Origin: Methylomarinum sp. Ch1-1
GTDB lineage: Bacteria > Pseudomonadota > Gammaproteobacteria > Methylococcales > Methylomonadaceae
Reading direction: 5' to 3'
DNA length: 64,000 bases
NCBI RefSeq assembly: GCF_030717995.2
Contig: NZ_CP157743.1
Location: 3,746,501-3,810,500 of the forward strand
The notes beneath the pieces were generated by a model. That model was not told the origin of the DNA. It was given only the letters and a program-made list of their open reading frames with translations, and did not search any database. Both the position numbers and the translations under genes were made by a program. Shown in pieces: positions 7,396 through 39,606 of the stretch. Positions within the stretch are counted from its first letter, which is position 1, and each line of letters begins with the position of its first letter.

Positions 7396-7397
7396 TC

Positions 7398-7832
7398 ATG
7401 ACGAAACCCGTAACCCCTCTGCTAGCCGCCGATACCTTGATTGAGTTGCCGGACCAACCCGGCCGCCCCTTGGTACTGATTGAGCGCGCCAACCCGCCTT
7501 ACGGCTGGGCGTTGCCGGGCGGCTTTGTCGACCTGGGTGAAACCATGGAACAGGCAGCCGTCCGCGAGGCCAAGGAGGAAACCGGCCTGAGCGTGGAATT
7601 ATCCGCGTTGCTGGGACTTTATTCCAACCCGGCCAGAGATCCCCGCAATCATACCGTCACCGCCGTTTATGTCGCCCAGGCGCATGGCCAGCCGGTAGCG
7701 GCCGATGACGCCAAGCATTGCGCCATTTTCACCTTGGACGACCTGCCGAATGAACTGGCCTTTGATCATGCCCTGGTGCTGGCCGATTATCGCCGTTTCC
7801 GCGAAAGCGGACGCATTGCCCCATTGCGTTGA
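7398..7832 (+). CDS. Nudix hydrolase
   Basis: Small pyrophosphohydrolase of the Nudix superfamily. The complete Nudix box is present: GFVDLGE, seven residues, then REAKEETGL. The four acidic or metal-binding positions are intact. The protein is 144 residues from the ATG at 7398, two bases after the nadB stop, so the two genes are probably co-transcribed. The motif does not reveal the substrate. The nadB neighbour and the resemblance to ADP-ribose and NADH type Nudix enzymes make a role in nucleotide or NAD clean-up plausible, but this is inference. Confidence 0.88.
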
Positions 7833-7843
7833 CTAGCCGCCTC

Positions 7844-9209: not shown

Positions 9210-9706
9210 ATTTTCATCCTTTGAGCGGAACGGGGTTTGCAACCCCCGTTCTGAACGATTCAACCGTTCCATAAACAAGTTGAACGTTCGGGGCGAGGTA
9301 ACTACTCACCCCATTCGTGGATAAGCGGAGCGCATCCACCGGGTCGGCATCTTTGGTGGATGCGCCCTTCAGGCTTATCCACCCTACATGCTGACCACCA
9401 TGGATGGCGGAAATGCCGATTTTGCCATAATGCCAAGGACGGCATGTAGTAGAGCAATGCAGGAGCAATTGCCGATAATGCCAAGGATGGCATGTAGTAG
9501 AGCAATGCAGGAGCAATTGCCGAGGAGCAAAAATCGGCCCTGCCGCGTTCGATAAGTGAGGCGAACAGTTACGGGGCGAGTAAATAACCCGCCCCGCGTG
9601 AAGCGCCGACAAGAGTCGGCAGAGCCTACGCATTTGCGCCTTAGCGTAATTCTCGCCAGCAAGGCCCAAGGCCGGCATGAGTTTCAATATAGTCGCATTT
9701 ACTTTA
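9210..9706. repeat. Intergenic repeat cluster between soxC-like and cytochrome genes
   Basis: About 500 bp with no convincing gene. It contains several imperfect palindromes of the GGGGCG..TAAATAAC..CGCCCC type (near 9288 and 9573) and paired GGATAAGC...GCTTATCC arms around 9320-9380. The GAACGATTCAACCGT stretch near 9255 recurs at 28.54 kb. Open frames across it have the odd composition of palindromic repeats and no visible start signals. Confidence 0.6.
9427..9522. repeat. Two tandem 48-bp repeats
   Basis: Units 9427-9474 and 9475-9522 are identical except for one base (AAGGACGG versus AAGGATGG). Each contains an inverted AATGCC...GGCAT arm and an ATGCAGGAGCAATTGCC tail. The near identity points to a recent duplication. 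Confidence 0.9.
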
Positions 9707-24642: not shown

Positions 24643-26313
24643 GTAAGTATTCACACACCCTAGCTGAAAATACAAAATAATTGACAAACCGACACAAGAA
24701 CATTGTACAAATCCATTAAGAAGCCTTAGTATTTATCCCATGCAACTCAGTAACCAGGACCTAAGCCAAATCGATGAAGACGAGCTTCTCAATTTACCGG
24801 AAGAGGAATTACGTTACCTATCGATTAAGTTACTTAACGACCTAAAAGAAGCGCGTGAGCGCTTAAGCCAAAATTCGCGCAACAGCTCTCGTCCACCTAG
24901 CAGCGAAGCGCCTTGGGATAAAGCAGCTACAGATAATACAAACGATCAAGAACAAACGGAGATCGATAAGTCTGCTGAAACGGAAGACACCGTCACCCCC
25001 CCGTCGCCTTCTAAAAAAGATCAGCAACAGTCCGCTGATCCTAACAATGAACATCAAGAACCCCGCAAACCCGGCAAACAACCAGGCGCACAAGGCTTTG
25101 GCCGAACACAAAAGCTAGCCATTACCCACTATCAAGATCATTACCCTGAAATATGTGCCTGCTGCCATCAAACATTAGAGCCGCGTCATGCTATCGCCTA
25201 TGCCGCGTATGAAACAATCAATGTCGAATGGGGCGATGTTGAGCATCCAGGCATTCTAGTCACCCATACCAAGCACACTCTCTATGAAGTAGTGTGCGCC
25301 AATGGACATATCACGCGCAAAGAAGTCAGTCGTAGCAGTCATGCTCAATTGCCGGGTATTAGCCGAACTGAATGGCGTTTAGTGGGGCCTGGACTGGCAG
25401 CAATGATTGTTTGTCTTGCCTACCGTATGCGCCTATCGCGTGAGCGTATTCAGGAATTTTATATGACTGGTTAGGTATTAAATTAAGTGTTGGCACCATC
25501 AATAATACCCTACATGAAAGTGGCGCAGCGGCTATGCCGCTTGAAGATGAGTTTGCACAAGAAATCATTAACAGCGAATTGCTGCATGTAGACGAAACCT
25601 CCTGGATGGAGCACACGACTTTTCTTTGGTTATGGGTGTTCAGTACGAATCGCGTCACAGCCTATTGGATTGCTACGCGTAGCGCTGAATTATTGGAAAA
25701 TCTTTTAGGCGACGACTTTAATGGTTGGTTAATGAGCGATGGCTACACGGTTTATCGCAAATATCTGAGTCGGTTACGTTGCTGGGCTCATCTTCTGCGT
25801 AAAGCGAAAGGGCTCAATGAAAGCTTAAACAGAGACGCCCAGCTTTTGGTCAACAAACGCACGATTTACTGGCTGTGTTGATAGGTGCGGTACGCAAAGC
25901 GCGAATAACACCACCTGATACGCCACTTTCTGAAACTTATCGCCTGCAATTACTGCTCTATCAGCAGATGTGTATACAAATGAAAACCCATGAACATAAG
26001 AAAACAGCAGCATTAGCCACGGAAATGCTAAATGACTGGACAGCTATTTTTCAAGTTCTGGATCAACCGCATCAGCCCTTAACGAATAATGAAGCGGAGC
26101 GAGCGTTGCGCCACTGGGTTATTTTACGCGGCATTTGCTATGGCACGCGCTCGGAAAATGGGACGCGTGTGTTCGCTATTTTAATCAGCGTCATTGAAAC
26201 CTGCCGCAAAAGAAATCAGTCACCGTGGATTTATTTGGCACAAGTGATCGCAAGTCAGCGGTCAGGCTTGCCGGTACCGGCCTTGCCAATTGTTAGGGTG
26301 TCTGAATAATTAC
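24643..26313 (+). mobile_element. IS66-family element, complete ends, decayed transposase
   Basis: 1671-bp element starting GTAAGTATTCACACACCCTA and ending with the complement of GTAATTATTCAGACACCCTA. It is flanked by a perfect 8-bp duplication AAATGGAG (24635-24642 and 26314-26321). GTAA ends and 8-bp duplications are characteristic of IS66. It has a single transposase gene and no tnpA or tnpB accessory genes. Confidence 0.93.
24740..26309 (+). pseudogene. IS66-family transposase, two frameshifts
   Basis: The transposase is read in three frames. The first part (24740-25474) has the IS66 N-terminus: SQNSRNSSRPPSSEAPWDK, a KPGKQPGAQGFGR motif and a CACC zinc-finger-like pair. The second part (about 25462-25840) carries the catalytic strand LLHVDETSW and the second aspartate MSDGY. 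The third part (to 26309) carries NNEAERALRHWVILRGI with the catalytic glutamate. Shifts lie near 25462 (apparent extra AT or one lost base) and near 25840. The ends of the element are still intact, so decay seems to post-date insertion. Confidence 0.9.
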
Positions 26314-27904: not shown

Positions 27905-28023
27905 CACTTGTTGCCTAAAATATTTCAAGCTCTACACTCTCTCTACACCTATTCTCAATCACCTTCGGTGGGCGCCTCAAGGTGCCTGCCGTCATAGCGG
28001 ATGCGGAGAAAAGGGGACAGGAG

Positions 28024-28148
28024 AAAAGGGGACAGGCTACTTTTCTCATGCTCCACTCTTTTTCTGGGTCTTCCGCGGCGCTTTCCAGCTGACGCTATTA
28101 CATATCTTAACCAATTTGTTTTGATATAAAAGCAGCCTGTCCCCTTTT
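28024..28148. repeat. 125-bp palindromic repeat, intact copy
   Basis: Bounded by 21-bp inverted ends with one mismatch (left AAAAGGGGACAGGCTACTTTT-type, right AAAAGCAGCCTGTCCCC plus T-run). The interior reads CTCATGCTCCACTC to TTGATATAAAAGC. Extra copies of the AAAAGGGGACAGG end lie just outside on both sides (28009 and 28153-28180). This copy is the empty-site reference for the interrupted copy at 12652-14294. Confidence 0.85.
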
Positions 28149-28180
28149 TCCGCTGTCCCCTTTTTCCTTGTCCCCTTTTT

Positions 28181-28461
28181 CCGACTGGATACGCACAACG
28201 GCCAATTTTGCCTCCGGTGCGGGGTTTTGGCGGCTTGCTTCGCGAAGCCGCCCTACGTTGGCTACCGGGTGCGGGTAGGGTGTGCTGACGTCAGGAAGCG
28301 CACCTTGTTTCGATGCGCTTCACGTTGTTCAGCACATCCTACGCAGGAAGACGACGCTGGACGACGATCGGCTTTACATTGACATCGCAGCCGTGGATTC
28401 GCCGACAGGCAATCCGACTGGATACGCACAACGGCCAATTTTGCCTCCGGTGCGGGGTTTT
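28181..28461. repeat. Dispersed repeat block with duplicated 48-bp segment
   Basis: The 48 bp at 28181-28228 recur identically at 28414-28461. Between them are the hairpin GGCGGCTTGCTTCGCGAAG (28229-28257) and a GGTGCGGGTAGGG...GGAAGCGCACC segment (28268-28304), which recur near 50.08 kb and 56.05-56.25 kb. The second 48-bp copy is followed by a hairpin lacking its left arm. No gene is supported in this stretch. Confidence 0.8.
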
Positions 28462-28576
28462 CGCGAAGCCGCCCTACGATGCAGAGCCGCGGCGCAAGTA
28501 GTCCGCATGTCGCTGCGAAATGCAGGTCAACGAGGTCCTGAACGATTCAACCGTGACTAGAGTAAGTTAAACGTTT

Positions 28577-28600
28577 GGGGCGGGTTAAATAACCCGCCCC
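28577..28600. repeat. Perfect palindromic hairpin repeat
   Basis: GGGGCGGGTT / AACCCGCCCC with a 4-nt loop. Imperfect relatives lie at about 9288 and 9573. A preceding GAACGATTCAACCGT stretch is shared with the 9.25-kb copy. The roughly 280 bp that follow hold no recognisable gene. Confidence 0.75.
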
Positions 28601-28883
28601 GACCAGAGGGATGACGCAATATTAACCAATGTGTTGGTTCAGATATTTTTTAATGAGGGAGCCCTGGATGCAGGCCAGTGTCTTATAGACCAAATAGCCG
28701 ATCTGTCATAGGGCTAATAGCCATATTTTCTTTTGCCTCCCCACACCCCATAAATGCAAAATTTTGACGATGCTGGCTCATTTTTCATGCACACGGTAAT
28801 AAAGCGTTTTTGAGAGAGTTTCTATTTACACCAATAACGCGCACTTTTTGCCCAGACTCTTAGAATAACGAAACTTTTAACCA

Positions 28884-28920
28884 ATAAAAAAACCCGCTAA
28901 GCCTTATGACTTGCGGGTTT
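28884..28920. terminator. Hairpin with T-run left of the island
   Basis: AAAACCCGC ... GCGGGTTTTT with an internal loop, A-run before and T-run after, so it can act on either strand. It lies just outside the left attachment site, where the original terminator of the secG-tRNA-Leu transcript is expected before island insertion. Confidence 0.65.
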
Positions 28921-28953
28921 TTAAATTTTACCGGATCACTCCGAACTTTAAAT

Positions 28954-28966
28954 TGGTGCGATGGCC
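28954..28966. other. Left attachment site of the island
   Basis: TGGTGCGATGGCC matches the tRNA-Leu 3' end at 39112-39125 (TGGTGCCGATGGCC) except for one missing C. Weaker similarity continues as CTTGAA. GATGGCC (7 bp) is the longest shared run around the probable crossover. The missing C is tolerable because this copy no longer has to be a functional tRNA. Confidence 0.65.
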
Positions 28967-29028
28967 TGTCTTGAATAGGATTAATTAAATCTATAAATAC
29001 AATATCTTATAAAATCAAAATTCATAAG

Positions 29029-29050
29029 ATACCATCAAATATACCATCAA
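29029..29050. promoter_or_regulatory. Integrase arm-type repeats, left end
   Basis: Two direct copies of ATACCATCAA separated by two bases. The same word occurs in the same orientation at 38979 and 38991 at the other end, and inverted at 38882 and 38948. The symmetric placement inside both attachment sites is typical for tyrosine integrase arm sites. Confidence 0.65.
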
Positions 29051-29433
29051 GAAATTAACCTTATCCACACCCCCTCTAACATAACACCGTTCGGCAGACG
29101 GCCTTAACCCACATGCTGTTGCCGCAAAGACGCCCCTGGCTCCGTCCTAAGTCAGTCTGACTTTACCGGCATCCAGTCTATTAGCACACTATATGGAAAC
29201 AATCGATTCCCTAGCATGATTTCATGCCAACTTCATACAGGCCTTTATATTCATAGGATACAGGCCGGCATGATTCTTGATATAGGTAATGTTTCCTGTT
29301 AGTAAATAATAGGCTCAGCCTGCCCAATCACGCGGCCATCGCCGTTACCGCCGATAGATCCAACGGCCCAACCGAGTCTATGTGACAGTGGGTCTATGTG
29401 TCAGTGGGTCAACGACTGGTGTAGAACCCTCAA
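29051..29433. other. Gene-free left margin of the island
   Basis: No open frame of coding character. It contains a direct repeat ATACAGGCC near 29236 and 29261, a GCATGATTTCATGC palindrome near 29214, and two tandem 16-bp units GTCTATGTGWCAGTGG at 29376-29391 and 29392-29407. Confidence 0.5.
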
Positions 29434-29463
29434 ACAAAAAAAGAGCCGGTAAAAACCGGCTCA
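29434..29463 (-). terminator. Rho-independent terminator ending the island operon
   Basis: Read on the minus strand, GAGCCGGT and ACCGGCTC form a stem followed by seven T residues. It lies downstream of the decoration-protein block, so it probably ends the leftward island transcript. Confidence 0.8.
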
Positions 29464-29518
29464 AAGCAACACAGCCAGCGAGCACAGGCTGTTTTACAAA
29501 AACTCTACCAAGCCTCAG

Positions 29519-29683
29519 CTATGGGGCAATTGAAGCCTGGTAACGCTCCTCATCGATCAGCAACTTAACAAAATCGATTTTCCCAAGATCGGTTGATTTT
29601 CCTTGTTGCCGGTATCTGGCGTCATAAACTTCTAAATAATGCTCGATCTTGTCTAAAAAGGCATTGATTTCGGTATCGTTCAT
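29519..29683 (-). CDS. Small protein of 54 residues, unknown
   Basis: Begins MNDTEINAFLDKIEHYLEVY and ends at TAG in 29519-29521. An AGGAG sits 10 bases before the ATG. It is the last gene before the terminator and follows the decoration-protein gene by 20 bp on the same strand. Its composition is helical and acidic. No family is recognised; its position suggests a small late protein of the satellite. Confidence 0.6.
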   Translation of the reverse strand: MNDTEINAFLDKIEHYLEVYDARYRQQGKSTDLGKIDFVKLLIDEERYQASIAP

Positions 29684-29703
29684 TACAATTTCGCTCCTAA
29701 GTA

Positions 29704-30345
29704 TTATCGAATCATTAAATGATTGCTTTTAAGATGTCCGATCGCGCCCGCCTTTTCATCAGCCGATATGCCGGCCGGCCAAACCAGCAAGCTGTCATTA
29801 GCAACAGCCAACCGTTCTATTGCTATGGCTTCAGAATCAGCTAAAGAAGCGTCCACATCATCATATAAAATGGCCGCCGCGTACTGGCTGCCATCGATCC
29901 CGGCGGGATTAAGCTGGGTGTATTTCAGGGAACCCTCAGCCACAGTGATGATAAAACGGTCACCCACAACAAAATCAATCGTTCCATCGGATAAAGTGAA
30001 CGAAAGCCCGCCGCCGGTAAATGCAGCGCCTACGGCACCGATCCCAATCACGTCGCCTTGTGGGTCAGTCACTTGAAATTCACCGCCATCAACCGCCGAC
30101 GTGGTAACTGTCAGAACATAATCACCCGCTTGGATACCCTCTACAAGGGAAACGGCGCTAAGCGTCCCATCGCCGGTATTGCCGCCGTCAGCTGATGATG
30201 AGGCCGCCCCGGTCTCAATTCTGCCCAGTATGGCGCCAGCCTTCAGGTTTTGCCCGGCAATCAAAGTTATTGCCTCTCTAAAAGTTGGGTCAACTTCGCT
30301 TAAAAGAAACTCACCGGCACGGTTTTTCTCTGTCAAAATAGCCAT
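29704..30345 (-). CDS. Phage head decoration protein (lambda gpD-like)
   Basis: 213 residues from the ATG at 30345, with GGGGAG eight bases upstream. The N-terminal part (NRAGEFLLSEVDPTFREAITLIAGQNLKAGAILG) and the C-terminal part (YAAAILYDDVDAS, GAIGHLKSNHLMIR) match lambda D-type decoration proteins, which bind trimer sites on expanded capsids and stabilise packaged DNA. A Gly- and Thr-rich insert (about residues 60-135, including GEFQVTDPQGDVIG and VGDRFIITVAEG) separates them, as in longer members of the family. It is the only structural phage protein recognisable in the island. It could decorate the capsid of a helper phage. Confidence 0.82.
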   Translation of the reverse strand: MAILTEKNRAGEFLLSEVDPTFREAITLIAGQNLKAGAILGRIETGAASSSADGGNTGDGTLSAVSLVEGIQAGDYVLTVTTSAVDGGEFQVTDPQGDVIGIGAVGAAFTGGGLSFTLSDGTIDFVVGDRFIITVAEGSLKYTQLNPAGIDGSQYAAAILYDDVDASLADSEAIAIERLAVANDSLLVWPAGISADEKAGAIGHLKSNHLMIR

Positions 30346-30366
30346 CTTTACCACTCCCCAAAAACT

Positions 30367-30870
30367 TTAATTTGCCGCGAATTCTAGGAAGATTTCCGGC
30401 CTAACATTTTCTCTCCTCGGGATATTCATCCCGATAGATTCGGCTTGATGAATAAGGCGCTCTTCATTCGTTTCCAATTTATCCAGCTCGGCATTAATTT
30501 TTGCAATCAATGATTTCCGTTCAGCGTTAGGTGGGCCTGCTTCATAATCTAAGGCGCTGATTCTTTGAGCAACGTTTTTTTTGATTTCTTCGCCAAATAA
30601 GCTGCATAGCATCTCGCTAAGATTAACCCCCTGGATTCCATCGCCGAGGCCTCTTAAGCCCGTTGTAAATATATCCACATCGGCAAACAGCCGACGAACA
30701 AGGCCGGCGTCGTCTGCGTAAGAATCCACTTTTGCGTTAAACCGGCTTATAAGGTCTTCCTTGTTGGGGTTGGCTGTCTCCAACCATTGTTTTTCGTCTT
30801 GCAATTCGGTTATTTGATCCCGAATCTTTTTAACGTCATAGATCGCTGTTGTTGCATTGAAATTTGCCAT
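30367..30870 (-). CDS. Unknown coiled-coil protein of island late block
   Basis: 167 residues, predicted mostly helical, with heptad-like stretches (IRDQITELQDEKQWLE and SLIAKINAELDKLETNEERL). The start ATG at 30870 has AAGGGCGG upstream. It lies 21 bp before the decoration-protein gene and 11 bp after the preceding gene, so it is in the same operon. It has no recognised domain. A scaffold, size-determination or assembly role would fit the position, but there is no direct sequence support for it. Confidence 0.6.
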   Translation of the reverse strand: MANFNATTAIYDVKKIRDQITELQDEKQWLETANPNKEDLISRFNAKVDSYADDAGLVRRLFADVDIFTTGLRGLGDGIQGVNLSEMLCSLFGEEIKKNVAQRISALDYEAGPPNAERKSLIAKINAELDKLETNEERLIHQAESIGMNIPRRENVRPEIFLEFAAN

Positions 30871-30881
30871 ATTGACCGCCC

Positions 30882-31451
30882 TTATATCCCGCCTGAAATG
30901 ATTAAGCCGTGAGTGCCTGTCCCGCCTATATTAACGCCGTTTTCTTTCAGAAAATCTTCACAGCGTTGACGTAAGCCAAGGATTAATTGATGTTTTTTTA
31001 AAACCTCTTCTCGGTAGGCATATAGCTCGTTTAGTTCTTCGACGGCCGCCAGGTATCTTTCTAGCGTGACCTTTGCCAAGGTATTGTTAATTGGATGAAA
31101 CTCGTAGGCATTGAGCAAGCTTTCTAAAGGGAAGTCTAAAAACCTGATTGAACCCGGTTTTAAAACGTCTTTTTTTAATTTCCCGGTCCGGACCAAATAT
31201 TCAAGTTTGTTTTGATTTATCTCCGCAGAACCATCATGCTCTTGAATATTTCTTCTCAGCTCCGCTACATTCTCTTTAAAATGCAAATATTCGTCAGATA
31301 ACGCCATATATTCAGCGTGTAGAGATTTCGCTTCTCTTTGCAGCTTCTTAAGCTTCGCAATGTTGTACTTAGCCACTATTGACACCTGTTTTAAGTTGTT
31401 TTCTCGGATCGCCCCGTAGGGAAGATATTCACAACCATCATATATCGGCAT
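30882..31451 (-). CDS. Unknown coiled-coil protein of island late block
   Basis: 189 residues, strongly helical in the middle (KLKKLQREAKSLHAEYMALSDEY, ELRRNIQEHDG) with a Gly-rich C-terminus (NIGGTGTHGLIISGG). The ATG at 31451 has a poor ribosome binding site; initiation may depend on translation from the gene 10 bp upstream. No family is recognised. With the next gene it forms a pair of helical proteins placed before the decoration protein. Confidence 0.58.
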   Translation of the reverse strand: MPIYDGCEYLPYGAIRENNLKQVSIVAKYNIAKLKKLQREAKSLHAEYMALSDEYLHFKENVAELRRNIQEHDGSAEINQNKLEYLVRTGKLKKDVLKPGSIRFLDFPLESLLNAYEFHPINNTLAKVTLERYLAAVEELNELYAYREEVLKKHQLILGLRQRCEDFLKENGVNIGGTGTHGLIISGGI

Positions 31452-31461
31452 TAGTGAAAAA

Positions 31462-31887
31462 TTAGGCGCTTTCTTTCTTCACAATATCGTGCAGCCCTTT
31501 ATCTGAATGCGGCATCTTGATACCAGCCTTAAGCGCCCAAAATAAATGGCGCTGCGTATCAGGCAGGTTTTTTGGTGGCTCCTTGTCATATTTGATATTT
31601 TCCCAGCGCCCCGCCTCAAAATTTCTTAATATTTCGGCAAGCCTTTCCGATCTACCCCATTCCGTTAAATCATTGTCGTTAATGGAAGTCCAGGCCGCCT
31701 TGATATGCCGGTTTCTTTTTTCGCGCCGGAATTGATAATAGAGGCTAGATAACCCTAACGTTGAATCCAGCGAGTAACCGACCTTAATTTTCCGTTCAAT
31801 GCCTTGCTTAAGCCAGACGGCCACATCAGGACTAAGCGGTTTACCCTGGTCAATTGACCTCAATAGGCTTTGGACCTTATCAATCAT
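31462..31887 (-). CDS. Unknown protein at head of island late block
   Basis: 141 residues, rich in Lys and Arg, with LSPDVAVWLKQGIERKI followed by a basic stretch FRREKRNRHIKAAW. No recognised domain. It is the first gene after the repeat-rich gap, so a promoter for the late block probably lies just upstream. The basic, helical composition would suit a DNA-binding or packaging-linked protein, but this is a guess. Confidence 0.55.
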   Translation of the reverse strand: MIDKVQSLLRSIDQGKPLSPDVAVWLKQGIERKIKVGYSLDSTLGLSSLYYQFRREKRNRHIKAAWTSINDNDLTEWGRSERLAEILRNFEAGRWENIKYDKEPPKNLPDTQRHLFWALKAGIKMPHSDKGLHDIVKKESA

Positions 31888-32094
31888 TTGCTATTTCCTA
31901 ATATCTTAGGCGTTCATCTGTATGAACACCTTATTAATAAAATTTGAGAAAAACGACATCATTAGAATAATTAGCCCGAGAAAACACTCTCGGTTAATAT
32001 TTATAAAAACTATCTAATGCCTTGATTAACAAGGGATACAGAGCATAACCGTATCTTGCTGCCGAGACTATAGAGCCACAAAAATTCAAAAAAA

Positions 32095-32144
32095 CCGGGG
32101 TTCGAATTACCCGCTAGGGTGGCATATAGGTACAGGGTCCCCGG
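32095..32144. other. GC-rich stem, possible packaging site
   Basis: CCGGGG (32095-32100) pairs with CCCCGG (32139-32144). Inside are GGTTCGAATTACCCGC and GGTACAGGGTCCCC. The segment stands out from AT-rich surroundings. Its look recalls cos-type regions of tailed phages, but no known cos sequence is matched with certainty. Confidence 0.3.
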
Positions 32145-32374
32145 CTAATTGGTCTTGCAGTCGAGAGCATGACCAGCCGCCGATCCATAACTAACCTCAG
32201 TCGTTTTTATTCTTCCCAGAGCTTTAGTGTGTTTCATTTCTATTGCTGCTCTTGGCTTATGGTTTCTATGCAACCAATAGTCTGAATAATGAGCAAAGCC
32301 TAATTTCTGTATCAGTGTCATGTTTCACCAATTGGATTTAATCAAACCAAACTTTCTATTTATATTTAGGCCAG

Positions 32375-32547
32375 AACTTAGGTAATTTAGGTAACTTAGA
32401 GGTATGACGCGGCCTACAGCCGAAGAAACTTAGGTAACTTAGCAAGAACTTAGGAAAATGCCTGTTTAAATAAAAGCTAAGTTTCTGCCTAAGTTTCTGC
32501 TAAGTTACTAGCTGTAAGCCTTGTAAACTCTCTAAGTTACTAAGTTC
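32375..32547. repeat. Symmetric iteron-like repeats, candidate origin
   Basis: The left half (32375-32454) has five CTTAG words in AACTTAGG or AACTTAGC contexts plus one TTTAGG. The right half (32477-32547) has five CTAAG words (CTAAGTTTC, CCTAAGTTTC, CTAAGTTAC twice, CTAAGTTC). The halves are inverted about a centre near 32465. It lies just downstream of the Toprim/DUF3987 replication pair. Direct plus inverted repeats of this density are typical of initiator-binding origins. Confidence 0.6.
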
Positions 32548-32577
32548 TTAAAGTTCTACGCGGATTTCTAATATTTG

Positions 32578-34002
32578 TTACACCGTATAAAAAACAGTGG
32601 TTCCCTTTCCGGCTTTTCCATCAGGTCTTGGCTTGGTTTCCTGCTTAATCAATGGCGGTGCAGAGTTCAGCAACACATTTAATGCAGTGGTAATCTCCGC
32701 CGCTGATAACTTATTTCTGAAGCTGCTCGTAATCGCCGTCCGAGTACATCCATCGTTTTTGGTTATAAACTCCAGCAATGTTTTTGACGTTTCATTAAGC
32801 TTTTCAGATTCGGCTTTGGCCGCTAGTGTCTGAAATATGTAACGAACCGATGCTTGCCAATAGTTCACCCAGGCCAACGCCGCATCGATATGTACGCGTT
32901 CAATAGTGCTTTTCTGATCGAACAAGGCAAAGATCATTGCCAACATTCTGGTATAGATTTCGGACCGCACCAGCAACGCGCCGACAATGCCGTCATGATC
33001 TTTGGTAATCTCTGGGTAATGGTGCGTCCAATATCGCGCCGCATCGGGCGATAACCTGACTTCAAGACGGCCCGGTTTCGTAACATCGCCATTGGTTGCA
33101 TATTCCACCGCTTCGGCAATCTTGACCGCCAAGCGTTTGATTTCTTCGTTTGGCGTTCGCTTCGGTAAAGGAACGAGTTTCGGCCTAGCTACGTGCAAAA
33201 TGATGAATCGATTCATGAAACCGGATTGCGCATCAACCGCCGTCATTTTCTCTATCAATTCCGGCGCCGTAATATGCCCCGTTAGGACTACATGCGGATC
33301 TGTTGCCGACCATTTCGCATTCTTCACTAGCGGGCTGATCGTCCGACCGTCCCACGTCGTGCGGATAATGGCCGATAAGTTGTTTTTCTCTCGTGAAGCC
33401 GCCGCCATTGCTCCGGCAAACTCAGCCTCAACAACCATCAACCGCTTGTCGCTCACGCCATCATCAATGTTATCGCCGCCCTTGCCTTCGATTGGATCAC
33501 GAATCACCCAACCCAAGCCTTCTCCGGTCGATAAGCCGCCGTCGTGACGTTTAAGACTTGGGAAACCATCGCCCAATAGTTGCCCAACTTCTTGAAAAAT
33601 TCGCCGTGGCGTATGCTCCGCCGTGCCTTTTCTCGCCTTGCCGGTTTTACCCACATGCAGAAAAAATGGCCTTGCATGGCATAATCCATCACCGATGTCC
33701 TGATAAGCGACACGGCCAATTGAAGCGCAAAATAACGCAATCACATTCGACGCAACCGCCACCTGGGACGCCTCACTATGAGCGGTTGCCACCTCCACAA
33801 TGTCCTTTAAAAAACCGTGATAAGCCGCCGCCGCCAGCACTGGCGGCGGGTTTAACAAAGCATTCTGTTTTTCAATCTCCTGATCTATCTGTGCATCGTG
33901 TCCCACTTCCGCCACCTGATCTAAGATTATGTCCTTGGTTGCATCAATTCCTTTTTCAACAAGCACATCGTTAAAATCGACAGATTTCACTTGTCTTGTC
34001 AT
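32578..34002 (-). CDS. DUF3987-type replication protein (primase-helicase partner)
   Basis: 474 residues. The central part resembles the DUF3987 family found in satellites, plasmids and YfjI-type proteins: HVGKTGKARKGTAEH in place of a P-loop, GLSTGEGLGWVIRDP, VVEAEFAGAMAAASREKNNLS, IIRTTWDGRTISPL, and a C-terminal winged-helix-like end. In such elements the protein works with a Toprim primase in replication initiation. Its ATG overlaps the Toprim gene stop by four bases, so the two are translationally coupled. The exact biochemical activity is not established by the motifs. Confidence 0.75.
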   Translation of the reverse strand: MTRQVKSVDFNDVLVEKGIDATKDIILDQVAEVGHDAQIDQEIEKQNALLNPPPVLAAAAYHGFLKDIVEVATAHSEASQVAVASNVIALFCASIGRVAYQDIGDGLCHARPFFLHVGKTGKARKGTAEHTPRRIFQEVGQLLGDGFPSLKRHDGGLSTGEGLGWVIRDPIEGKGGDNIDDGVSDKRLMVVEAEFAGAMAAASREKNNLSAIIRTTWDGRTISPLVKNAKWSATDPHVVLTGHITAPELIEKMTAVDAQSGFMNRFIILHVARPKLVPLPKRTPNEEIKRLAVKIAEAVEYATNGDVTKPGRLEVRLSPDAARYWTHHYPEITKDHDGIVGALLVRSEIYTRMLAMIFALFDQKSTIERVHIDAALAWVNYWQASVRYIFQTLAAKAESEKLNETSKTLLEFITKNDGCTRTAITSSFRNKLSAAEITTALNVLLNSAPPLIKQETKPRPDGKAGKGTTVFYTV

Positions 34003-34919
34003 GTCGCTGATCTCCAGGTGGGATAGATCACAATCCCGCCAACCGCGCGCGCCGCGTCAGTCGCTTTGGTTCTCCCAGGATTATCTTGATTATCGATATC
34101 GTCATCCGCGCATAAAACAATTTTCGCCAACGGATAGCGTTCACGCACGGCGACAGCGACAGGCCGTAAATTTCCGGCATCGAAGGCAATGAATACGATC
34201 CACCCTGTTGCCATTCTAATACTGGCTCCGGTCGCGTACCCTTCCACAATTGCTAGAAAATCATTTGACTTGATACGCTCACCCAGAATGCAAAAACGCC
34301 CTTTTTTTACAGTTCCAGTTAGAAATTTTTTATTGCCATCGCCATCGATGAACTGTAATCCGGTCAGCTTTTTATCAAAACCATAAACCGGCAAAACGAT
34401 GGATCCCCGCGTAAAGCGCGTATTGAACGCCGCCACTTTTTTACGCTGAAGATAGGCTGATCGTCCACGACACGGCAACTTTGCCCAAATCTCCGCCGCC
34501 CGTTGTGCCGTTTCCTCGATCTGGCTTTGTCGCTCTTGCTCCGCTTCAATACGCTTGCGTTCCTGTTCTGCGGCATATCGCCGGCGTTCTTCTTTTGAAA
34601 AAGTCCGAATAGCCTGCAATCCGACATTGTAGGAAAAAGTTTCAGCCCCTTTAAACCAGCCGAACGACCCGGCAACTAACTCTTTTCCATCATCCAGTCT
34701 GAATGGAAAAAGAACGTACCAGGCCCGCTTTTTGTTTTTCTTCGGTTCCCAGTCTGGCCGGAAACGATGCAACGCACCGTCCACAATAAGATCACGCTCA
34801 GTCAGCCCTGTTAGGCCTACGGCAAGCATCTGCTCGATAACATTCTCCAGGCCGCTTTTATCGATTACGCCTGTCTCCGCGCACGTAACGCCGCGACAGG
34901 CCTCATTAGAATCAGTCAT
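33999..34919 (-). CDS. Toprim-domain primase-like protein
   Basis: 306 residues. The C-terminal half is a Toprim fold with the catalytic glutamate in LAIVEGYATG and the acidic cluster in VLCADDDIDN. The N-terminal half (about residues 1-110) resembles the P4-alpha and TraC-like primase leader, and a helical Glu/Arg-rich linker (RRRYAAEQERKRIEAEQERQ) joins them. No zinc finger is visible. It is coupled to the DUF3987 gene. Together they probably drive autonomous replication of the island after excision. Confidence 0.78.
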   Translation of the reverse strand: MTDSNEACRGVTCAETGVIDKSGLENVIEQMLAVGLTGLTERDLIVDGALHRFRPDWEPKKNKKRAWYVLFPFRLDDGKELVAGSFGWFKGAETFSYNVGLQAIRTFSKEERRRYAAEQERKRIEAEQERQSQIEETAQRAAEIWAKLPCRGRSAYLQRKKVAAFNTRFTRGSIVLPVYGFDKKLTGLQFIDGDGNKKFLTGTVKKGRFCILGERIKSNDFLAIVEGYATGASIRMATGWIVFIAFDAGNLRPVAVAVRERYPLAKIVLCADDDIDNQDNPGRTKATDAARAVGGIVIYPTWRSAT

Positions 34920-35001
34920 TTTTAAAACTCCTTTTCGCCGGGTTCAAAATCCGTTACAATTGCTTTGTAGTTTTTTGGGATATGAACCCGGCTTAATCTG
35001 G

Positions 35002-35442
35002 TCAATTAAGTCGGGTTTTTTGTTGCCTACGGATAAACCGCTCGGCCTTGCCGTGCAGCTTGGCCGCTTCTGCCGCATTAACGCTGGGCTTGAAGTCATC
35101 CACCACAAACACGGCATCACCTTTTCTGCCCTTACCTGTTTTCTCACCGAGACCTAGCCAAGCAATAGGTTTCGCATGACCGCGCACATCACCGATGGGC
35201 TGCTGAATACTTGCTAATATCGCGGCCCTTCCTGGCTCATCGATCGATGAAAACAAAAAAGTCATACCCGCGACATAGGCGCCTGGTCGTATTTTCTTGA
35301 TTTTCTGCAAAACCGTGTTTGCTTGGGCCTCTGTTGCATACATCGGCGACAACGCAATACCAATCTCGTTACCTTTATCCATCTTGACCTGGTAGGCAAA
35401 AACAGCGGCGGGGAATAATTTTCTAGTGGCGCTAATATTCAC
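35002..35442 (-). CDS. Unknown island protein
   Basis: 146 residues from a GTG at 35442 that overlaps the stop of the preceding gene by four bases. No domain is recognised. The sequence has an alpha/beta look (PAAVFAYQVKMDKGNEIGIAL, GKGRKGDAVFVVDDF) and a basic C-terminus (KAERFIRRQQKTRLN). It is part of the coupled run between the Ash-like ORF and the replication genes. Confidence 0.58.
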   Translation of the reverse strand: MNISATRKLFPAAVFAYQVKMDKGNEIGIALSPMYATEAQANTVLQKIKKIRPGAYVAGMTFLFSSIDEPGRAAILASIQQPIGDVRGHAKPIAWLGLGEKTGKGRKGDAVFVVDDFKPSVNAAEAAKLHGKAERFIRRQQKTRLN

Positions 35443-35777
35443 GGCATCACCTCCTTGATTTGCTGCTCGATCTCGTAATACTCGGAATCAAGCCAGCGGG
35501 AAACATGGCGGATATGCAATATCTCATGGAACAGGCGGAAGCCTTCCGCATCCAGGCGGATCAGTTCACCCAGGGAATGGTTGAAAGGTTGATCGGTGCG
35601 GTAGGCGCTAATAAAGGCATCAGCTAGAAATTGCCCACTGTGGCCGCCGTCCTTGACGCGTTTCAGCAATAAATCCGTTTCCAAGGGCATTGGATCGAGG
35701 CCGCGCTCTTGGGCCTGCCTGGCTAGAATCTCATCAAGTGATCGCTTTCTGGGTGCTTCAATGGTGATAGGGTTCAT
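35439..35777 (-). CDS. Unknown island protein
   Basis: 112 residues. The N-terminus is basic (EAPRKRSLDEILARQAQERGLDP) and the C-terminal part is acidic and helical (FRLFHEILHIRHVSRWLDSEYYEIEQQ). No family is recognised. The start overlaps the upstream stop by four bases and its own stop overlaps the next start, so it is made in fixed ratio with its neighbours. Confidence 0.58.
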   Translation of the reverse strand: MNPITIEAPRKRSLDEILARQAQERGLDPMPLETDLLLKRVKDGGHSGQFLADAFISAYRTDQPFNHSLGELIRLDAEGFRLFHEILHIRHVSRWLDSEYYEIEQQIKEVMP

Positions 35778-35998
35778 GATTCACCCCCATAAATGGCATT
35801 GAACTGGGTGTTGAATTCCCGATGCAGTTGCAGCAATTCGGCAACGGTCAATTGCTCGACCGATTTCCCGGTTTGCTCAATACGGCGGTTTAATCCGGCG
35901 GTGTAATGGCAGTTTGACCCGGCAATGTCGCCGATCTCCAGGCATACATCGATTAACGCCAATTCCTTGGCTTGTGTTTCTGTGGTTGATATAGCCAT
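35774..35998 (-). CDS. Small unknown island protein
   Basis: 74 residues, beginning MAISTTETQAKELALIDVCLEIGD, mostly helical, with two cysteines. It lies three bases after the Ash-like ORF and overlaps the following start. No family is recognised. The tight packing supports it being a real gene. Confidence 0.55.
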   Translation of the reverse strand: MAISTTETQAKELALIDVCLEIGDIAGSNCHYTAGLNRRIEQTGKSVEQLTVAELLQLHREFNTQFNAIYGGES

Positions 35999-36001
35999 GA
36001 T

Positions 36002-36490
36002 TCAACCCTCCATCATGCCGATGAACTTCAAGCCATAACGGCCTTGCAGTTCTGGCAATAAGGCTTGGATTTGCGACGAAGATAGGCCGCGACAGACTAA
36101 CGTCTTAACGCCGTTGACGTGTTTGAAAAGGTCGAATTTTGATTGAATGTTGCCCTGAGGTTTGGGCGGATTTTGGGTGTGATTAACCATGACGGTAGCT
36201 CCTGTATTGAGGATGTAACCGCCTCTCATTGGTCTCAATCGTTGGGAGGCGGGCTGCACTGGGTTGAGACTACCGGATACAGGAACCGGCCAGGCCGAAG
36301 CCTGCCCAATGCAGCCCACCATGACAGATTTTAAGCGGATGAATCCCGCTTTAATTTTTGATGGGCAATAAAAAACCGCATGAATCGCGGCCTTTTGGCC
36401 TGTAATTTCCGGGGTCTCAATCCCGGCACTCGTTTTTTGCGAGTGCGGGTTAATCTTAGCCGCCGTTTTGTTCGCTGTCAATGCCAACAT
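36002..36490 (-). CDS. Ash/Icd-like satellite protein
   Basis: 162 residues from the ATG at 36490 (a GTG at 36493 is also possible). The middle part, SVMVGCIGQASAWPVPVSG, closely recalls the Ash and Icd-like ORFs of P4-type satellites, which contain GCAGQASAWPV-like blocks next to the AlpA gene. The C-terminal third (SKFDLFKHVNGVKTLVCRGL, LLPELQGRYGLKFIGMMEG) is a separate segment. The DNA encoding the centre is full of inverted repeats, as in P4, where this region also makes a regulatory RNA. Its protein function is uncertain. Confidence 0.65.
   Translation of the reverse strand: MLALTANKTAAKINPHSQKTSAGIETPEITGQKAAIHAVFYCPSKIKAGFIRLKSVMVGCIGQASAWPVPVSGSLNPVQPASQRLRPMRGGYILNTGATVMVNHTQNPPKPQGNIQSKFDLFKHVNGVKTLVCRGLSSSQIQALLPELQGRYGLKFIGMMEG
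36201..36317. repeat. Nested inverted repeats within the Ash-like gene
   Basis: Four stems: CCTGTAT/ATACAGG (36201-36207, 36277-36283), CCGCCTC/GAGGCGG (36219-36225, 36246-36252), GTCTCAA/TTGAGAC (36232-36238, 36264-36270), and GGGCTGCA/TGCAGCCC (36251-36258, 36310-36317). Several are mutually exclusive, which would permit alternative RNA folds. Confidence 0.7.
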
Positions 36491-36708
36491 CACGCGGACA
36501 CCTCATCGATGAGGCGTTTAATATCTTCCACCCGCCAGGCGGAACAGCGCGGCGATAGCTTCACCGGCGCTGGGTAACGACCGGCTTTTACGCCTTCATA
36601 CCAGCTTGTTTTTGAAACAGGAATAACGGCAGGAATGCCTTTTTTTGGATCGCCGATTATTTGCGGCAATCGAAGATAACCCGTACTGGGTAATTGATGA
36701 ACACTCAT
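36490..36708 (-). CDS. AlpA-family transcriptional regulator
   Basis: 72-residue helix-turn-helix protein of the AlpA/MerR-like type (YLRLPQIIGD, PVSKTSWYEGVKAGRYPAPVKL, AWRVEDIKRLIDEV). The ATG at 36708 has AAGG eight bases upstream. AlpA of CP4-57 activates the neighbouring integrase gene and so excision; Vis of P4 is a relative. Here the gene lies between integrase and the rest of the island, consistent with control of int and of the leftward operon. It overlaps the Ash-like ORF. Confidence 0.85.
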   Translation of the reverse strand: MSVHQLPSTGYLRLPQIIGDPKKGIPAVIPVSKTSWYEGVKAGRYPAPVKLSPRCSAWRVEDIKRLIDEVSA

Positions 36709-36811
36709 GTAAAACACCTTGCCTTTAACGGCTTTAGTTGAACGTGAGTGTATTTTGAATGACAGGTTATTTTTTGTCGGTATGAATACGTTTAGAAAAA
36801 ACGACTCATAT

Positions 36812-37603
36812 TTAAACTTTTTTCTTTTTTTGACTTTGTTTGAAGTTTTTCACATCTTGAACACAAATTGATTCATCTCCTAGCGAAACCTGCAAAACAT
36901 CCGCTAATTCCTGTTCTGTAATATTAAGGATTGTTGAAGGCAATTGCCTTATTTCAATTTGATGGTCAATAACCTTAAAAAAATGCTCGCAGAAAAAATT
37001 GATTTTACCGGCTTTTTTTGGCGTCATCGCGTCATCTGAAACCTTAAAACCCATTGAATACTGGCGGGATATTTCATCGATGATATTTGGAATATCTGGG
37101 AAGTATTTAAATTCAATTCCCTTTATAGCCTCATTAACTCCACCAGCTATCCGATCATTAAACCTATGGCGAGTTTCAGAATCCGCTTGATTATCAGCCG
37201 CATTCTTTATTAATTCAAATGGACAGCAATCTGCACTCTCGAAAAAGCCATATTTTGAGCCCAACAATTGAGCCGCTTTTATTTGTCTCGATAAGCTATC
37301 CGCCGTCTTTGATATTTCCGCCAGTTTTTCATCATATTCATTCTTAGCATCACTAATTTCTTTTTTCTTTTCCCGTGCATAATCGCTTGAACATTCAACC
37401 AATATTTGCAGAAAAATAGCCCAATATAACCCCTCTGAACCCTGAGATTTTTTGATATTTTTATCTATATGCCAGAAAGCCTTGATAAAACCTGAATCCT
37501 GACAATCAAGCAAACGCTTAACCACAGGACCATCACGCTTCATGAAATGTTTTTCAGAATCGGCCAATACAGAATGCGCCCTTTTAGGCAATCTGGAACT
37601 CAT
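36812..37603 (-). CDS. Unknown protein between integrase and AlpA gene
   Basis: 264 residues from the ATG at 37603, which has GGGGTG upstream; the frame extends to 37648 with other possible starts. There is a central helical stretch (YAREKKKEISDAKNEYDEKLAEISKTADSL) and a basic C-terminal tail ending QKKKKV. No domain is recognised and no membrane segment is visible. AT-rich codon use differs from the neighbours. The slot next to the integrase is a common site for cargo, including phage-defence genes, but there is no sequence evidence for that role. Confidence 0.6.
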   Translation of the reverse strand: MSSRLPKRAHSVLADSEKHFMKRDGPVVKRLLDCQDSGFIKAFWHIDKNIKKSQGSEGLYWAIFLQILVECSSDYAREKKKEISDAKNEYDEKLAEISKTADSLSRQIKAAQLLGSKYGFFESADCCPFELIKNAADNQADSETRHRFNDRIAGGVNEAIKGIEFKYFPDIPNIIDEISRQYSMGFKVSDDAMTPKKAGKINFFCEHFFKVIDHQIEIRQLPSTILNITEQELADVLQVSLGDESICVQDVKNFKQSQKKKKV

Positions 37604-37700
37604 ACGCACCCCATCAAAGTGCATCATCACTGAAAGGAAACCGGGCAAGCTGGGTGATGAATCCAGCGTTTCAGCCGCTAAACCTAGCCCGGCAATATGA

Positions 37701-38882
37701 TTATACCTGTTTCCTGATCGGTATCACCTCAGCGCCGTTTTTAAGGCCGTCCAGGTAATCGGCCCAGGCTTGCATCATGCGGCGGCGTTCGTCCAGGTAT
37801 TGCGCCCGGTTATAGGCCGCCCGCACCTGATCCCTTGGCATGTGTGATAATTGCCGCTCGATCGCGTCAGGACTCCAGCCTTGTTCGTTCAATAGTGTAC
37901 TTGCCGTTGTTCTGAACCCGTGCGGCGTTACATCGTCATTGGTGTAACCCATCGCCCGTAGCGCCGTTCTAACCGCATTATCGGACATGGGACGGCCATC
38001 GTTACGGCTGGAAGGGAAAACATACCTCCCGGCCCCGGTAAGCGGCTCGATCTCGCGCAAAATCGTGATAGCCTGATCGGAAAGCGGGACAATGTGCTGA
38101 ATCTTCGTTTTTGTGACCAGATATCGCCATTCCTTTGCTGTAAAGTCGATATCAGCCCACTCCATTGCCCTGATTTCTCCAGGGCGCTGGAACAATAACG
38201 GTGAAATTCTTAAAGCTTGCTGAACCACAAACGTTCCGCTATAGGCATAAATTGCCCGCATAAGCTGACCCACGTCCTTGGGTTCGGTCAATGCCGTGCG
38301 ATGTTTCGCCTTATGCGCTGGTATTTGTTTGGCGACCGCTTGCGCCGGGTCGTACCCAGTTAAGCCGTGCGCTATGGCATAGGCGTAAATTTCGCTTATT
38401 TCGGCCCGGATACGGTGTGCCGAATCTATTTTGTGTTTTTCGACCAATGGCCTTACCACGTTGAACACATCCGGCGACTTCACGTCTTTAACCGGGGTTT
38501 GCCCAATAACCGGAAACACATGCAGTTCAAAGCGTCGAAGTTTTTTCTTGTGCGTCATCGGCTCGATGATTCTTTGTTTTGCCTTAAACCACAGCATAGC
38601 CAAATCGATAAACAAGTTACTATCGGTTTTCTTTTCCTGCATGGGGTCGATACCGTCAGCAATTTGTTTCCTTGCTTCGTCGCGCTTCTCTCTGGCCTTG
38701 GCAAGCGTTACATCGGGATACCCCCCGATGGACATGGTTTTTTGCTTGCCTTGAATGCGGTAATTAAACCTAAACAACTTGCTGCCAGTGGGATTTATGA
38801 GCAGATAAAGCCCTTTCTCGTCAGTGAGCTTATAAGGCTTCTCTTTCGGCTTGGCGTTCTTGATAGCTGTATTCGTCAACAT
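37701..38882 (-). CDS. int: P4-type tyrosine integrase
   Basis: 393-residue site-specific recombinase. The N-terminal DUF4102 arm-binding domain is clear (MLTNTAIKNAKPKEKPYKLTDEKGLYL, GGYPDVTLAKAREKRDEARKQ). The catalytic residues are the Arg in RPGEIRAMEW, His and Arg in HGFRTTAS, the second His in LSHMPRDQV and the Tyr in AAYNRAQYLDERR. It sits at the island end next to tRNA-Leu, as P4-type integrases do. Its start region overlaps an arm-type repeat (38882-38892), so integrase binding could repress its own transcription. Confidence 0.95.
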   Translation of the reverse strand: MLTNTAIKNAKPKEKPYKLTDEKGLYLLINPTGSKLFRFNYRIQGKQKTMSIGGYPDVTLAKAREKRDEARKQIADGIDPMQEKKTDSNLFIDLAMLWFKAKQRIIEPMTHKKKLRRFELHVFPVIGQTPVKDVKSPDVFNVVRPLVEKHKIDSAHRIRAEISEIYAYAIAHGLTGYDPAQAVAKQIPAHKAKHRTALTEPKDVGQLMRAIYAYSGTFVVQQALRISPLLFQRPGEIRAMEWADIDFTAKEWRYLVTKTKIQHIVPLSDQAITILREIEPLTGAGRYVFPSSRNDGRPMSDNAVRTALRAMGYTNDDVTPHGFRTTASTLLNEQGWSPDAIERQLSHMPRDQVRAAYNRAQYLDERRRMMQAWADYLDGLKNGAEVIPIRKQV

Positions 38883-39001
38883 TTGATGGTATCGCCTTTA
38901 AAATTTTAAACGCTGCAACCCATTGTTATTAATAGGCTTTTAACGATTTTGATGGTATCGTAAAAATTTATACTCTCGATACCATCAAAAATACCATCAA
39001 A
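38882..39001. promoter_or_regulatory. Integrase arm-type repeats and int promoter region
   Basis: Two direct copies of ATACCATCAAA (38979-38989, 38991-39001) and two inverted copies, TTTGATGGTAT (38882-38892, 38948-38958). The stretch between is AT-rich and is the only space for an int promoter. The word matches the left-end arms at 29029-29050. Confidence 0.7.
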
Positions 39002-39043
39002 AATGCCCGGCTGCCAGTGGTTTTTACCGGACACTAACGGACA

Positions 39044-39076
39044 TAAAAAAGCCCAAAGTCTTGATAACTCTGGGCT
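39044..39076 (-). terminator. Terminator of the secG-tRNA-Leu transcript
   Basis: On the minus strand GCCCAGAG pairs with CTTTGGGC and is followed by TTTTTT. It lies 36 bp beyond the tRNA-Leu 3' end, on DNA brought in by the island. Confidence 0.7.
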
Positions 39077-39111
39077 TTCTGGGTTTTTTCCGGGCTTCCC
39101 GGACTTGCATC

Positions 39112-39196
39112 TGGTGCCGATGGCCGGACTTGAACCGGCACGACCTAAGTCACCACCCCCTCAAGATGGCGTGTCTACCAATTTCACCACATCGGC
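39112..39196 (-). tRNA. leuU: tRNA-Leu(GAG), island attachment site
   Basis: 85 nt with encoded CCA. The acceptor stem GCCGATG pairs with CATCGGC. The anticodon loop TTGAGGG gives GAG, and there is a long variable arm (GTGACTTAGGTCGT). It lies 26 bp downstream of secG, the conserved secG-leuU arrangement. The 3' 14 bases are the right attachment site of the island, so integration kept the tRNA intact. Confidence 0.96.
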
Positions 39197-39222
39197 TTTT
39201 TTTCTTTACCTGTCTGTATCAA

Positions 39223-39606
39223 TTATTCGCCGCCTTTGGCAGATTCCTTAGCTTCATTAACCACTTGCTGAGGCACTTCTTCCTGAGCAACTGGCGCCGC
39301 ACCACCTTCCACTAAAGGCACGTCAGCTTTAACATCTTCGACTGCCGGGGCATCCATGATGTCGGTTTGCTCTTCCTGATAACCGCCTAATACCGCCAAA
39401 CCCAGACTGGTCGCAAAGAATAATGTTGCAAAGACCGCTGTCGTTCTCGATAAAAACGAAGCCGCACCCTGAGCACCAAACACCGAGCCAGAGGAAGCGC
39501 TACCAAAAGCCGCGCCAGCATCGGCGCCCTTGCCTTGCTGCATTAAAACCAAACCGACCACACCTAAGCCCAATAAAACATGGACAACAATAATAACCTG
39601 ATACAT
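39223..39606 (-). CDS. secG: Preprotein translocase subunit SecG
   Basis: Small membrane subunit of SecYEG, assisting SecA-driven protein export. Two transmembrane helices are visible (residues 3-21 and about 52-72). The conserved VLMQQGKGADAGAAFGSASSGSVFGAQGAASFL loop lies between them. A Glu- and Ala-rich tail follows, as is common. At 127 residues it is normal length. It lies 23 bp after tpiA and just before tRNA-Leu, probably one transcript. Confidence 0.94.
   Translation of the reverse strand: MYQVIIVVHVLLGLGVVGLVLMQQGKGADAGAAFGSASSGSVFGAQGAASFLSRTTAVFATLFFATSLGLAVLGGYQEEQTDIMDAPAVEDVKADVPLVEGGAAPVAQEEVPQQVVNEAKESAKGGE

Follow-up and report, generated by a model that had tools for sequence, protein, structure and literature searches.

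A probable phage satellite carrying a lambda-type head decoration gene in a tRNA-Leu gene of Methylomarinum sp. Ch1-1, and its relatives in Methylococcales

The genome of Methylomarinum sp. Ch1-1 (three contigs, 100% complete) carries an integrated element of about 10 kb in a tRNA-Leu(GAG) gene of contig NZ_CP157743.1, referred to here as C2. "The window" is the whole stretch of 64,000 nucleotides that was analysed (C2:3746501-3810500), and the element, called island A, occupies window positions 28941-39134; coordinates are those of the window unless another locus is named. All open reading frames (ORFs) counted as parts of island A lie on the minus strand, in the order integrase, orf278, AlpA-like gene, Ash-like gene, Toprim primase, DUF3987 gene, iterons, small genes and, at the far end, a gene for a head decoration protein of the lambda gpD type. 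An earlier note, made from the sequence, had described such a one-directional set including AlpA, Ash-like, Toprim, DUF3987 and gpD genes next to an integrase in this tRNA; the description holds, with the AlpA and Ash matches falling below the Pfam cut-offs and the setting confirmed by the tRNA called by ARAGORN and by three integrase domains.

The tRNA-Leu(GAG) gene (39112-39196, minus strand) lies beside genes that we take, by eye, to be secG and tpiA, and these neighbours recur in relatives. The attL core (39099-39134, minus strand) is made of the tRNA 3′ end and downstream bases, and it aligns with an attR core at the far end (28941-28975, minus strand). This tRNA duplicate, which the note had also pointed out, is genuine but imperfect: its score of 30 exceeds the highest value, 26, obtained in 20 shuffles. 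Two islands in the same tRNA gene of two other genera, L053 and L051, have duplicates scoring 59 and 79 with the identical one-base gap, and 27 identical nucleotides of the attR stretch are common to A and L053. The arm-type repeats that the note had seen inside both ends are likewise present. Four direct copies of ATACCATCA are at 29029, 29041, 38979 and 38991, and inverted copies lie at 38884 and 38950, making up a right-end field at 29029-29049 and a left-end field of ATACCATCA / TGATGGTAT repeats at 38884-38999; within 28001-39300 they are absent from everywhere but the island ends.

Five tRNA-Leu(GAG) loci of the same genus (L081-L085) were compared as possible empty sites. The stretch just outside attR (28882-28940) resembles sequence downstream of tRNA-Leu in same-genus genomes and is probably the displaced native flank: window 28886-28975 is 74% identical over 91 nt to the tRNA-downstream sequence of L084, and the outer flank is 83% identical over 95 nt to that of L082. 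Searches with the island proteins (tblastn) found none in the stretches compared at four of the five loci, L084 among them. The fifth, L082, was rejected as an empty site on account of integrase remnants at its positions 9014-9399 (77% identical to the integrase of A over 52 aa and 44% over 81 aa); its genome, G084, also holds a coil-gene fragment (the coil gene is described below) at the end of another contig and thus appears to contain a decayed relative. The outer flank finds no match at L083 and L085, and L081, which matches 44 nt beyond attR as well as 42 nt at the attL end, is ambiguous. Since L082 is not empty, L083 and L085 are unmatched and L081 is equivocal, the sequence-based borders of the island are supported mainly by the shared att duplicates, and weakly by empty sites.

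The tyrosine integrase (393 aa; 37701-38882, minus strand) has Arm-DNA-bind_3, Phage_int_M and Phage_integrase domains (PF00589, 1.2e-22) and is 76% identical to that of L053, the island closest to A. The region that follows it on the same strand holds regulatory features. An int-alpA RNA (RF02996, 37625-37694) is followed by orf278 (36812-37648), by an AlpA-like regulator or excision gene (36490-36717; 91% identical to its counterpart in a second island, B, of the same genome, and 70% to that in L053), by an isrK RNA (RF01394, 36369-36446) that overlaps a sub-gathering match to a c4-a1b1 target, and by a C4 antisense RNA (RF01695, 36242-36326; 75.4 bits, E 1e-13), all three RNAs being above the Rfam gathering score. 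An Ash/epsilon-like ORF (PF10554, 36002-36493) and orf74 (35774-35998, 93% identical in island B) complete the region. The AlpA-like and Ash-like calls are backed by homologues in relatives and by the C4 and int-alpA RNAs, and position agrees for AlpA. C4 RNA is above the gathering score in six of the seven relative loci searched, the exception being L057, and int-alpA RNA in three of the seven. P4 and P1 use a C4-type RNA as their immunity regulator, and the three RNAs of island A fit a P4-type immunity region. Genes shared with island B are under purifying selection, with dN/dS of 0.063/0.232 for orf278, 0.042/0.317 for AlpA and 0.045/0.219 for orf74. orf278 shares 88% identity with its copy in island B, and distant homologues occur in islands of genomes G024 and G037; the G024 island sits at a tRNA-Arg gene, and no coil gene was found in the two G024 stretches searched (L026, L027). 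No defence gene was found in the 10 proteins scanned, and an NCBIfam scan returned integrase matches only, below cut-off.

The replication block, also on the minus strand, is preceded by orf112 (35439-35777; homologues in the L054 and L055 islands) and orf146 (35002-35442; short matches to large replication proteins of several relatives). It comprises a Toprim primase (33999-34919), above the Pfam cut-offs and with a PHROG primase match at 4.8e-67, and a DUF3987 protein (32578-34002; 3.8e-09, above cut-off), which has helicase/primase-type PHROG matches and is 62% identical to its homologue in L053. Directly 3′ of the DUF3987 gene lies the iteron field that the note had reported (32370-32557), a candidate replication origin built on a AACTTAGGTAAC-type word. 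In L053 this word is again found 3′ of the DUF3987 homologue, while B and L051 have different replication genes with different iteron words beside them, so the field fits a cognate origin of the Toprim/DUF3987 block. The arrangement, a primase-replication module with a candidate origin directly 3′ of rep, is also that of the phage-inducible chromosomal islands (PICIs), at least at the level of sequence; their origin is placed directly 3′ of rep (PMC6092414). In L053 the Toprim gene is split into two ORFs (6127-8039) by about 1 kb holding a 323-aa ORF on the opposite strand.

The head-directed end of the island, again on the minus strand, includes the small orf58 (32145-32321) and orf141 (31462-31887), a homologue of orf162 of island B that is conserved across the family described below. 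It is followed by the coiled orf189 (30882-31451), which holds the position of an orf159 family and shows at most a weak similarity to it (hhalign E 4.5e-4, probability 33%); the orf159 family itself matches nothing in the PDB under E 0.13. Next comes what is here called the coil gene (167 aa; 30367-30870), the marker of the family, found by profile searches and modelled as an all-helical protein: a single-sequence model reaches pLDDT 59, and a model from three aligned rows, also helical, pLDDT 78. Assigning it to a known fold by profile search of the PDB was tried and abandoned, as the matches were mostly coiled-coil background (best E 0.015). The gpD-type decoration protein (216 aa; 29704-30354; PF02924 1.4e-25, PHROG head decoration 2.8e-18) has an insertion of about 95 aa that is found in phage homologues too, and beyond it lies the small orf54 (29519-29683). 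The noncoding stretch at 29124-29320 recurs in island B (91% identity) and in a third island, C, of another genus (about 73-77%). As a cos or pac packaging site it was rejected: it is a dispersed repeat, present in 19 of 201 genomes of the host's taxonomic family and in no phages, and two copies (about 73-77%) stand beside tRNA-Leu(CAG) of the same genome, at C2:3153022 and 3153536. Near that tRNA there is also another integrase-like gene (L103 3841-5055; C2:3157841-3159055), 23-26% identical to the integrases of A and B and probably part of a separate mobile element. Outside island A, its flank carries an IS66 transposase fragment (25875-26309).

Island A has a sister in its own genome. The only other gpD match there, 52% identical to that of A, lies in island B, which occupies tRNA-Leu(CAA) from C2 2228915 to a candidate end at about 2241100. 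The two islands share 83.5% identity over 2881 nt (window 35450-38314, from the later part of the integrase gene to orf112), and their middles differ. In addition, B encodes a small terminase subunit, TerS (phrog_57, 1.2e-12), and an S49 head protease of the lambda gpC type (phrog_53, 4.3e-54), in the order TerS, orf162, orf159, coil, orf168, protease, gpD. The coil gene has homologues both in B and in island C (L030), which is integrated in tRNA-Leu(TAA). Candidate borders are 13 nt long for B (score 26, shuffle maximum 24) and 17 nt for C (29 against 23). At the right end of B (L005 about 843-925), 80-83 nt containing TTTCGCCCC-type words occur again, at 94-95% identity, in the 5′ part of the DUF3987 ORF of B and immediately 3′ of that ORF. 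Just after gpD, island C encodes an 84-aa protein resembling late-transcription activators (L030 9513-9767; phrog_532, 2.5e-9), a gene that a satellite able to turn on the late genes of a helper would be expected to have.

A profile built from the three coil sequences finds 16 places in 14 of 311 Methylococcales genomes. Elsewhere in the class, 4 of 368 genomes give weak matches (2.7e-10 to 2.1e-4). No confirmed match was obtained in IMG/VR with two alignments, by a method that is insensitive (on genome contigs it recovers 3 loci, against 16 places by profile search), and none in phages or plasmids searched with one protein each. The 13 further neighbourhoods were set against named genes of A, B, C and prophages in BLAST comparisons, and the better-kept islands follow a common plan: tRNA, integrase, optionally AlpA, Toprim plus a large replication protein, optionally TerS, orf141/162, orf159, coil, and optionally protease and gpD. 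Among the optional genes, AlpA is found in L030, L051, L053 and L055, TerS in B and L053, and gpD in A, B and C. Island C departs from the plan in having the protease before the coil gene and no Toprim match. L057, L058, L060, L061 and L062 are distant members, found more weakly with a profile from eight other islands (coil E 2.8e-32 to 3.4e-8), and L052, L059 and L063 are remnants or stand at contig ends. Because L056, L059 and L062 are bounded by contig ends, the genes absent from them mean little.

The head-gene content of these places was scored with five profiles (portal, gpE capsid, gpC protease, gpD and coil): a protease match occurs at 9 of the 16 (one, in L052, a fragment) and gpD at 3, and no portal or gpE-type capsid match lies near the coil gene at any of them, capsid families outside the gpE type not being profiled. 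At 16 control loci of phages and prophages the same profiles find the capsid 16 times, the portal 14 times and the coil never, a recovery that is circular for portal and capsid, whose profiles derive from these same loci and their kin; G109 and G096 have no portal or protease match and L090 no gpD. All 11 phage comparison loci have portal, protease and capsid matches. Throughout the order, gpD (PF02924) is present in 19 of 311 genomes as 22 distinct genes, and a gpE-type capsid gene stands directly downstream in 19 of the 22; the three exceptions, in A, B and C, each neighbour a coil gene. In the genome of strain Ch1-1 there is no match to Phage_portal_2 (PF05136), Phage_cap_E (PF03864) or GpA_ATPase (PF05876), the portal, capsid and terminase families searched genome-wide. 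The earlier note had called the island a satellite rather than a prophage remnant, to be doubted if portal, capsid or terminase genes of the same element turned up elsewhere in the genome, or if relatives proved to be decayed prophages with the missing genes still beside gpD. Neither the genome, with these profiles, nor the coil places, with those for portal and gpE, showed anything of the kind, and island B and the capsid-less coil family add support to its view.

The head genes that are present appear to have passed between phages and islands. The proteases of B, L051, L053, L054 and L055 form one clade (support 100/99) on a long stem, and the C and L056 proteases cluster with that of prophage L023; as the starred branches of the tree force at least three phage-satellite changes, the gene must have been exchanged more than once. 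In the gpD tree, A falls with C and the G090 prophage, and B with the G194 prophage. At least two changes are forced by its starred branches, a pattern consistent with independent gains from distinct gpD lineages of phages and, by extension, with use. Past residue 240, six of the satellite proteases have tails of 60-149 aa, and that of L054 stops earlier. W..[AIV][AFIVLM] motifs, one to three in each, occur in 6 of 7 satellite proteases and in 1 of 14 from phages or prophages, leaving aside the L057 and L052 proteases found later; these counts are descriptive only, the pattern having been picked after the tails were seen. In lambda, the corresponding region holds Nu3, and the B protease matches lambda at residues 47-237 only.

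As read from its sequence, then, island A combines att and arm sites, an integrase, regulation, its own primase and DUF3987 gene, and a head-directed end that has no gpE capsid, portal or terminase. We consider it likely that it is a phage satellite belonging to a family within Methylococcales and acting with a helper phage that has a lambda-type head, and that it most likely spreads by altering the heads that this helper builds. The C4 RNA would keep the island silent until a helper with such a head (portal, gpC protease, gpD and gpE) triggered its excision and replication. The coil protein and its two neighbours would then act on the helper procapsid, possibly on its size, and the gpD of the island would bind the shell built of helper gpE; relatives with a gpC-type protease, and sometimes TerS, would take over more steps of the same helper. 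A hint of possible helper co-residence comes from gpD-gpE clusters on another contig in 3 of the 14 coil genomes (G226, G237 and G242, whose coil similarity is weaker), compared with 14 of the 297 others.

Several observations weigh against this reading. Excision, a helper and packaged DNA have not been observed, and no clean empty site was found among the five same-genus loci. The AlpA match (PF05930) reaches 16 bits against a cut-off of 21, and the Ash match (PF10554) 20.9 bits against 26. The coil protein has no Foldseek match at E<=0.001 in the PDB or BFVD, and its role is accordingly deduced from its position. gpD is present at only 3 of the 16 coil places. Having neither TerS nor protease, A could itself be a reduced, less autonomous member of the family. 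The missing gpE, portal_2 and GpA matches also mean that no helper of the lambda head type resides in its own genome. Finally, the PICI EcCICFT073 encodes putative capsid and head decoration proteins, and deletion of neither gene, the decoration gene c1500 included, altered interference or transfer (PMC6092414).

That element is also the basis of the strongest rival, namely that island A is a Gram-negative PICI of the EcCICFT073 type, in which gpD would be incidental cargo or an interference factor and not a working part of the coat. The description of these islands fits in its main lines, with an integrase, an AlpA-type regulator, a primase-rep module with a 3′ origin, an optional TerS and a decoration gene (PMC6092414), and the silent c1500 deletion speaks in the same sense. 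Island A indeed has the att site and the integrase of a Gram-negative PICI, with AlpA below cut-off, and like EcCICFT073, which resides in E. coli with lambda as helper, it combines an integrase, a small regulator, a primase and a lambda-type decoration gene near the far end. The Icd-like gene of EcCICFT073, which is of the Ash type, may have its counterpart in the Ash-like ORF of A. EcCICFT073, however, has a major capsid gene beside gpD (the pair is labelled major capsid protein and head decoration protein in RefSeq; capsid profile E 3.2e-35), it is inserted between roxA and phoQ and not in tRNA-Leu, and its stretch gives no coil, gpC-type protease or portal profile match and has no TerS annotated. 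The coil family has its C4 RNA and a distinct coil module, and the gpD tree suggests use and not idle cargo, so that this rival seems to us unlikely.

Could the islands instead be decayed lambda-type prophages that have lost most structural genes and kept an integrase and gpD? gpD and gpC are lambda-type head genes, the gpD of A and B group with those of prophages (G090, G194), and worn relatives exist: the coil gene of G052 is broken by stops, the protease frame of L054 ends at 238 aa, and G084 has integrase remnants at the same tRNA. Yet the order of integrase, primase, replication gene, orf141/162 and coil is constant across islands from several genera and at different tRNA sites, most of those examined also having AlpA and C4 RNA; the coil gene was not found in phages in the searches made, the protease clade is its own, purifying selection acts on the genes common to A and B, and nothing of a portal or gpE accompanies the 16 coil genes. 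Decay of a prophage is thus a very improbable origin. That the islands are capsid-forming PICIs minus their capsid genes is hardly credible, for B keeps part of a head operon (TerS, protease, gpD) but gpE-type capsid and portal are missing at 16 of 16 coil places, gpD at 13 and a protease match at 7.

If island A is the phage satellite that we favour, it stands apart from those already described. P4-like satellites have a C4-type antisense RNA immunity and a tRNA site, and the C4 RNA and tRNA-Leu site of island A parallel both traits. They also share with it an integrase, their own primase and a similar size, P4 measuring 11.6 kb (PMC4936722), and the AlpA-like and epsilon/Ash-like matches of A, though below cut-off, would add to the likeness. 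A satellite known from Pseudomonas carries an integrase, AlpA and a primase and is devoid of structural genes (PMC4936722). On the definition of P4-like satellites used here (PMC8628076), A differs in having lambda-type and not P2-type head genes, and psu (PF07455), delta (PF04606) and the alpha primase family (PF03288) give no match at E<=0.1 in 15 island A ORFs. The label "P4-like" given by the note is supported in part: the C4 RNA and the AlpA-like and Ash-like genes suit it, and the missing psu, delta and alpha genes do not. Capsid-forming PICIs, like A, carry head genes of phage origin, but they make their own capsids (PMC11389934), whereas the family of A has no gpE-type capsid or portal. 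The Staphylococcus aureus pathogenicity islands (SaPIs), with CpmAB, and the PICI-like elements (PLE) redirect capsid assembly of a helper (PMC5644958, PMC10945586), while for the coil protein such a role is suggested by position. The note had singled out the decoration protein as without match among satellites; as worded this does not stand, since EcCICFT073 carries such a protein beside a capsid, and satellites with a decoration gene were already known. In the gene set that the note held to be unlike P4, PICI and capsid-forming PICI (PLE being left aside), what distinguishes the lineage is the coil module and the lambda C/D-type head genes without E. What is new here is the lineage, the coil module and the protease and decoration genes without a capsid gene; no description of the coil island family was found in the titles and beginnings of abstracts of the literature on satellites, capsid genes and methanotrophs, subscription papers lying mostly outside that search.

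A narrower proposal, which we put forward tentatively and would not yet back against its negation, is that these islands are a separate lineage of methanotroph-phage satellites that captures lambda-type heads by substitution: they would contribute a coil protein of their own, in many cases together with a gpC-type protease that has a short tail of repeated tryptophan motifs in place of the Nu3-like scaffold part, and in some cases TerS and gpD as well, and would leave only capsid, portal and tail to the helper. Were this true, they would stand midway between PICIs that take complete heads from a helper and PICIs that make heads themselves. The finding brings an environmentally important order into the known range of phage satellites and provides, in the coil gene, a marker that can be searched for. 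The family also offers a set of natural variants (coil without other head genes, or joined by protease, by protease plus TerS, by gpD or by all of these) from which it may be learned which head parts a satellite must supply; and if the mechanism holds, replacement of the protease and scaffold would give satellites another way of hijacking capsids.

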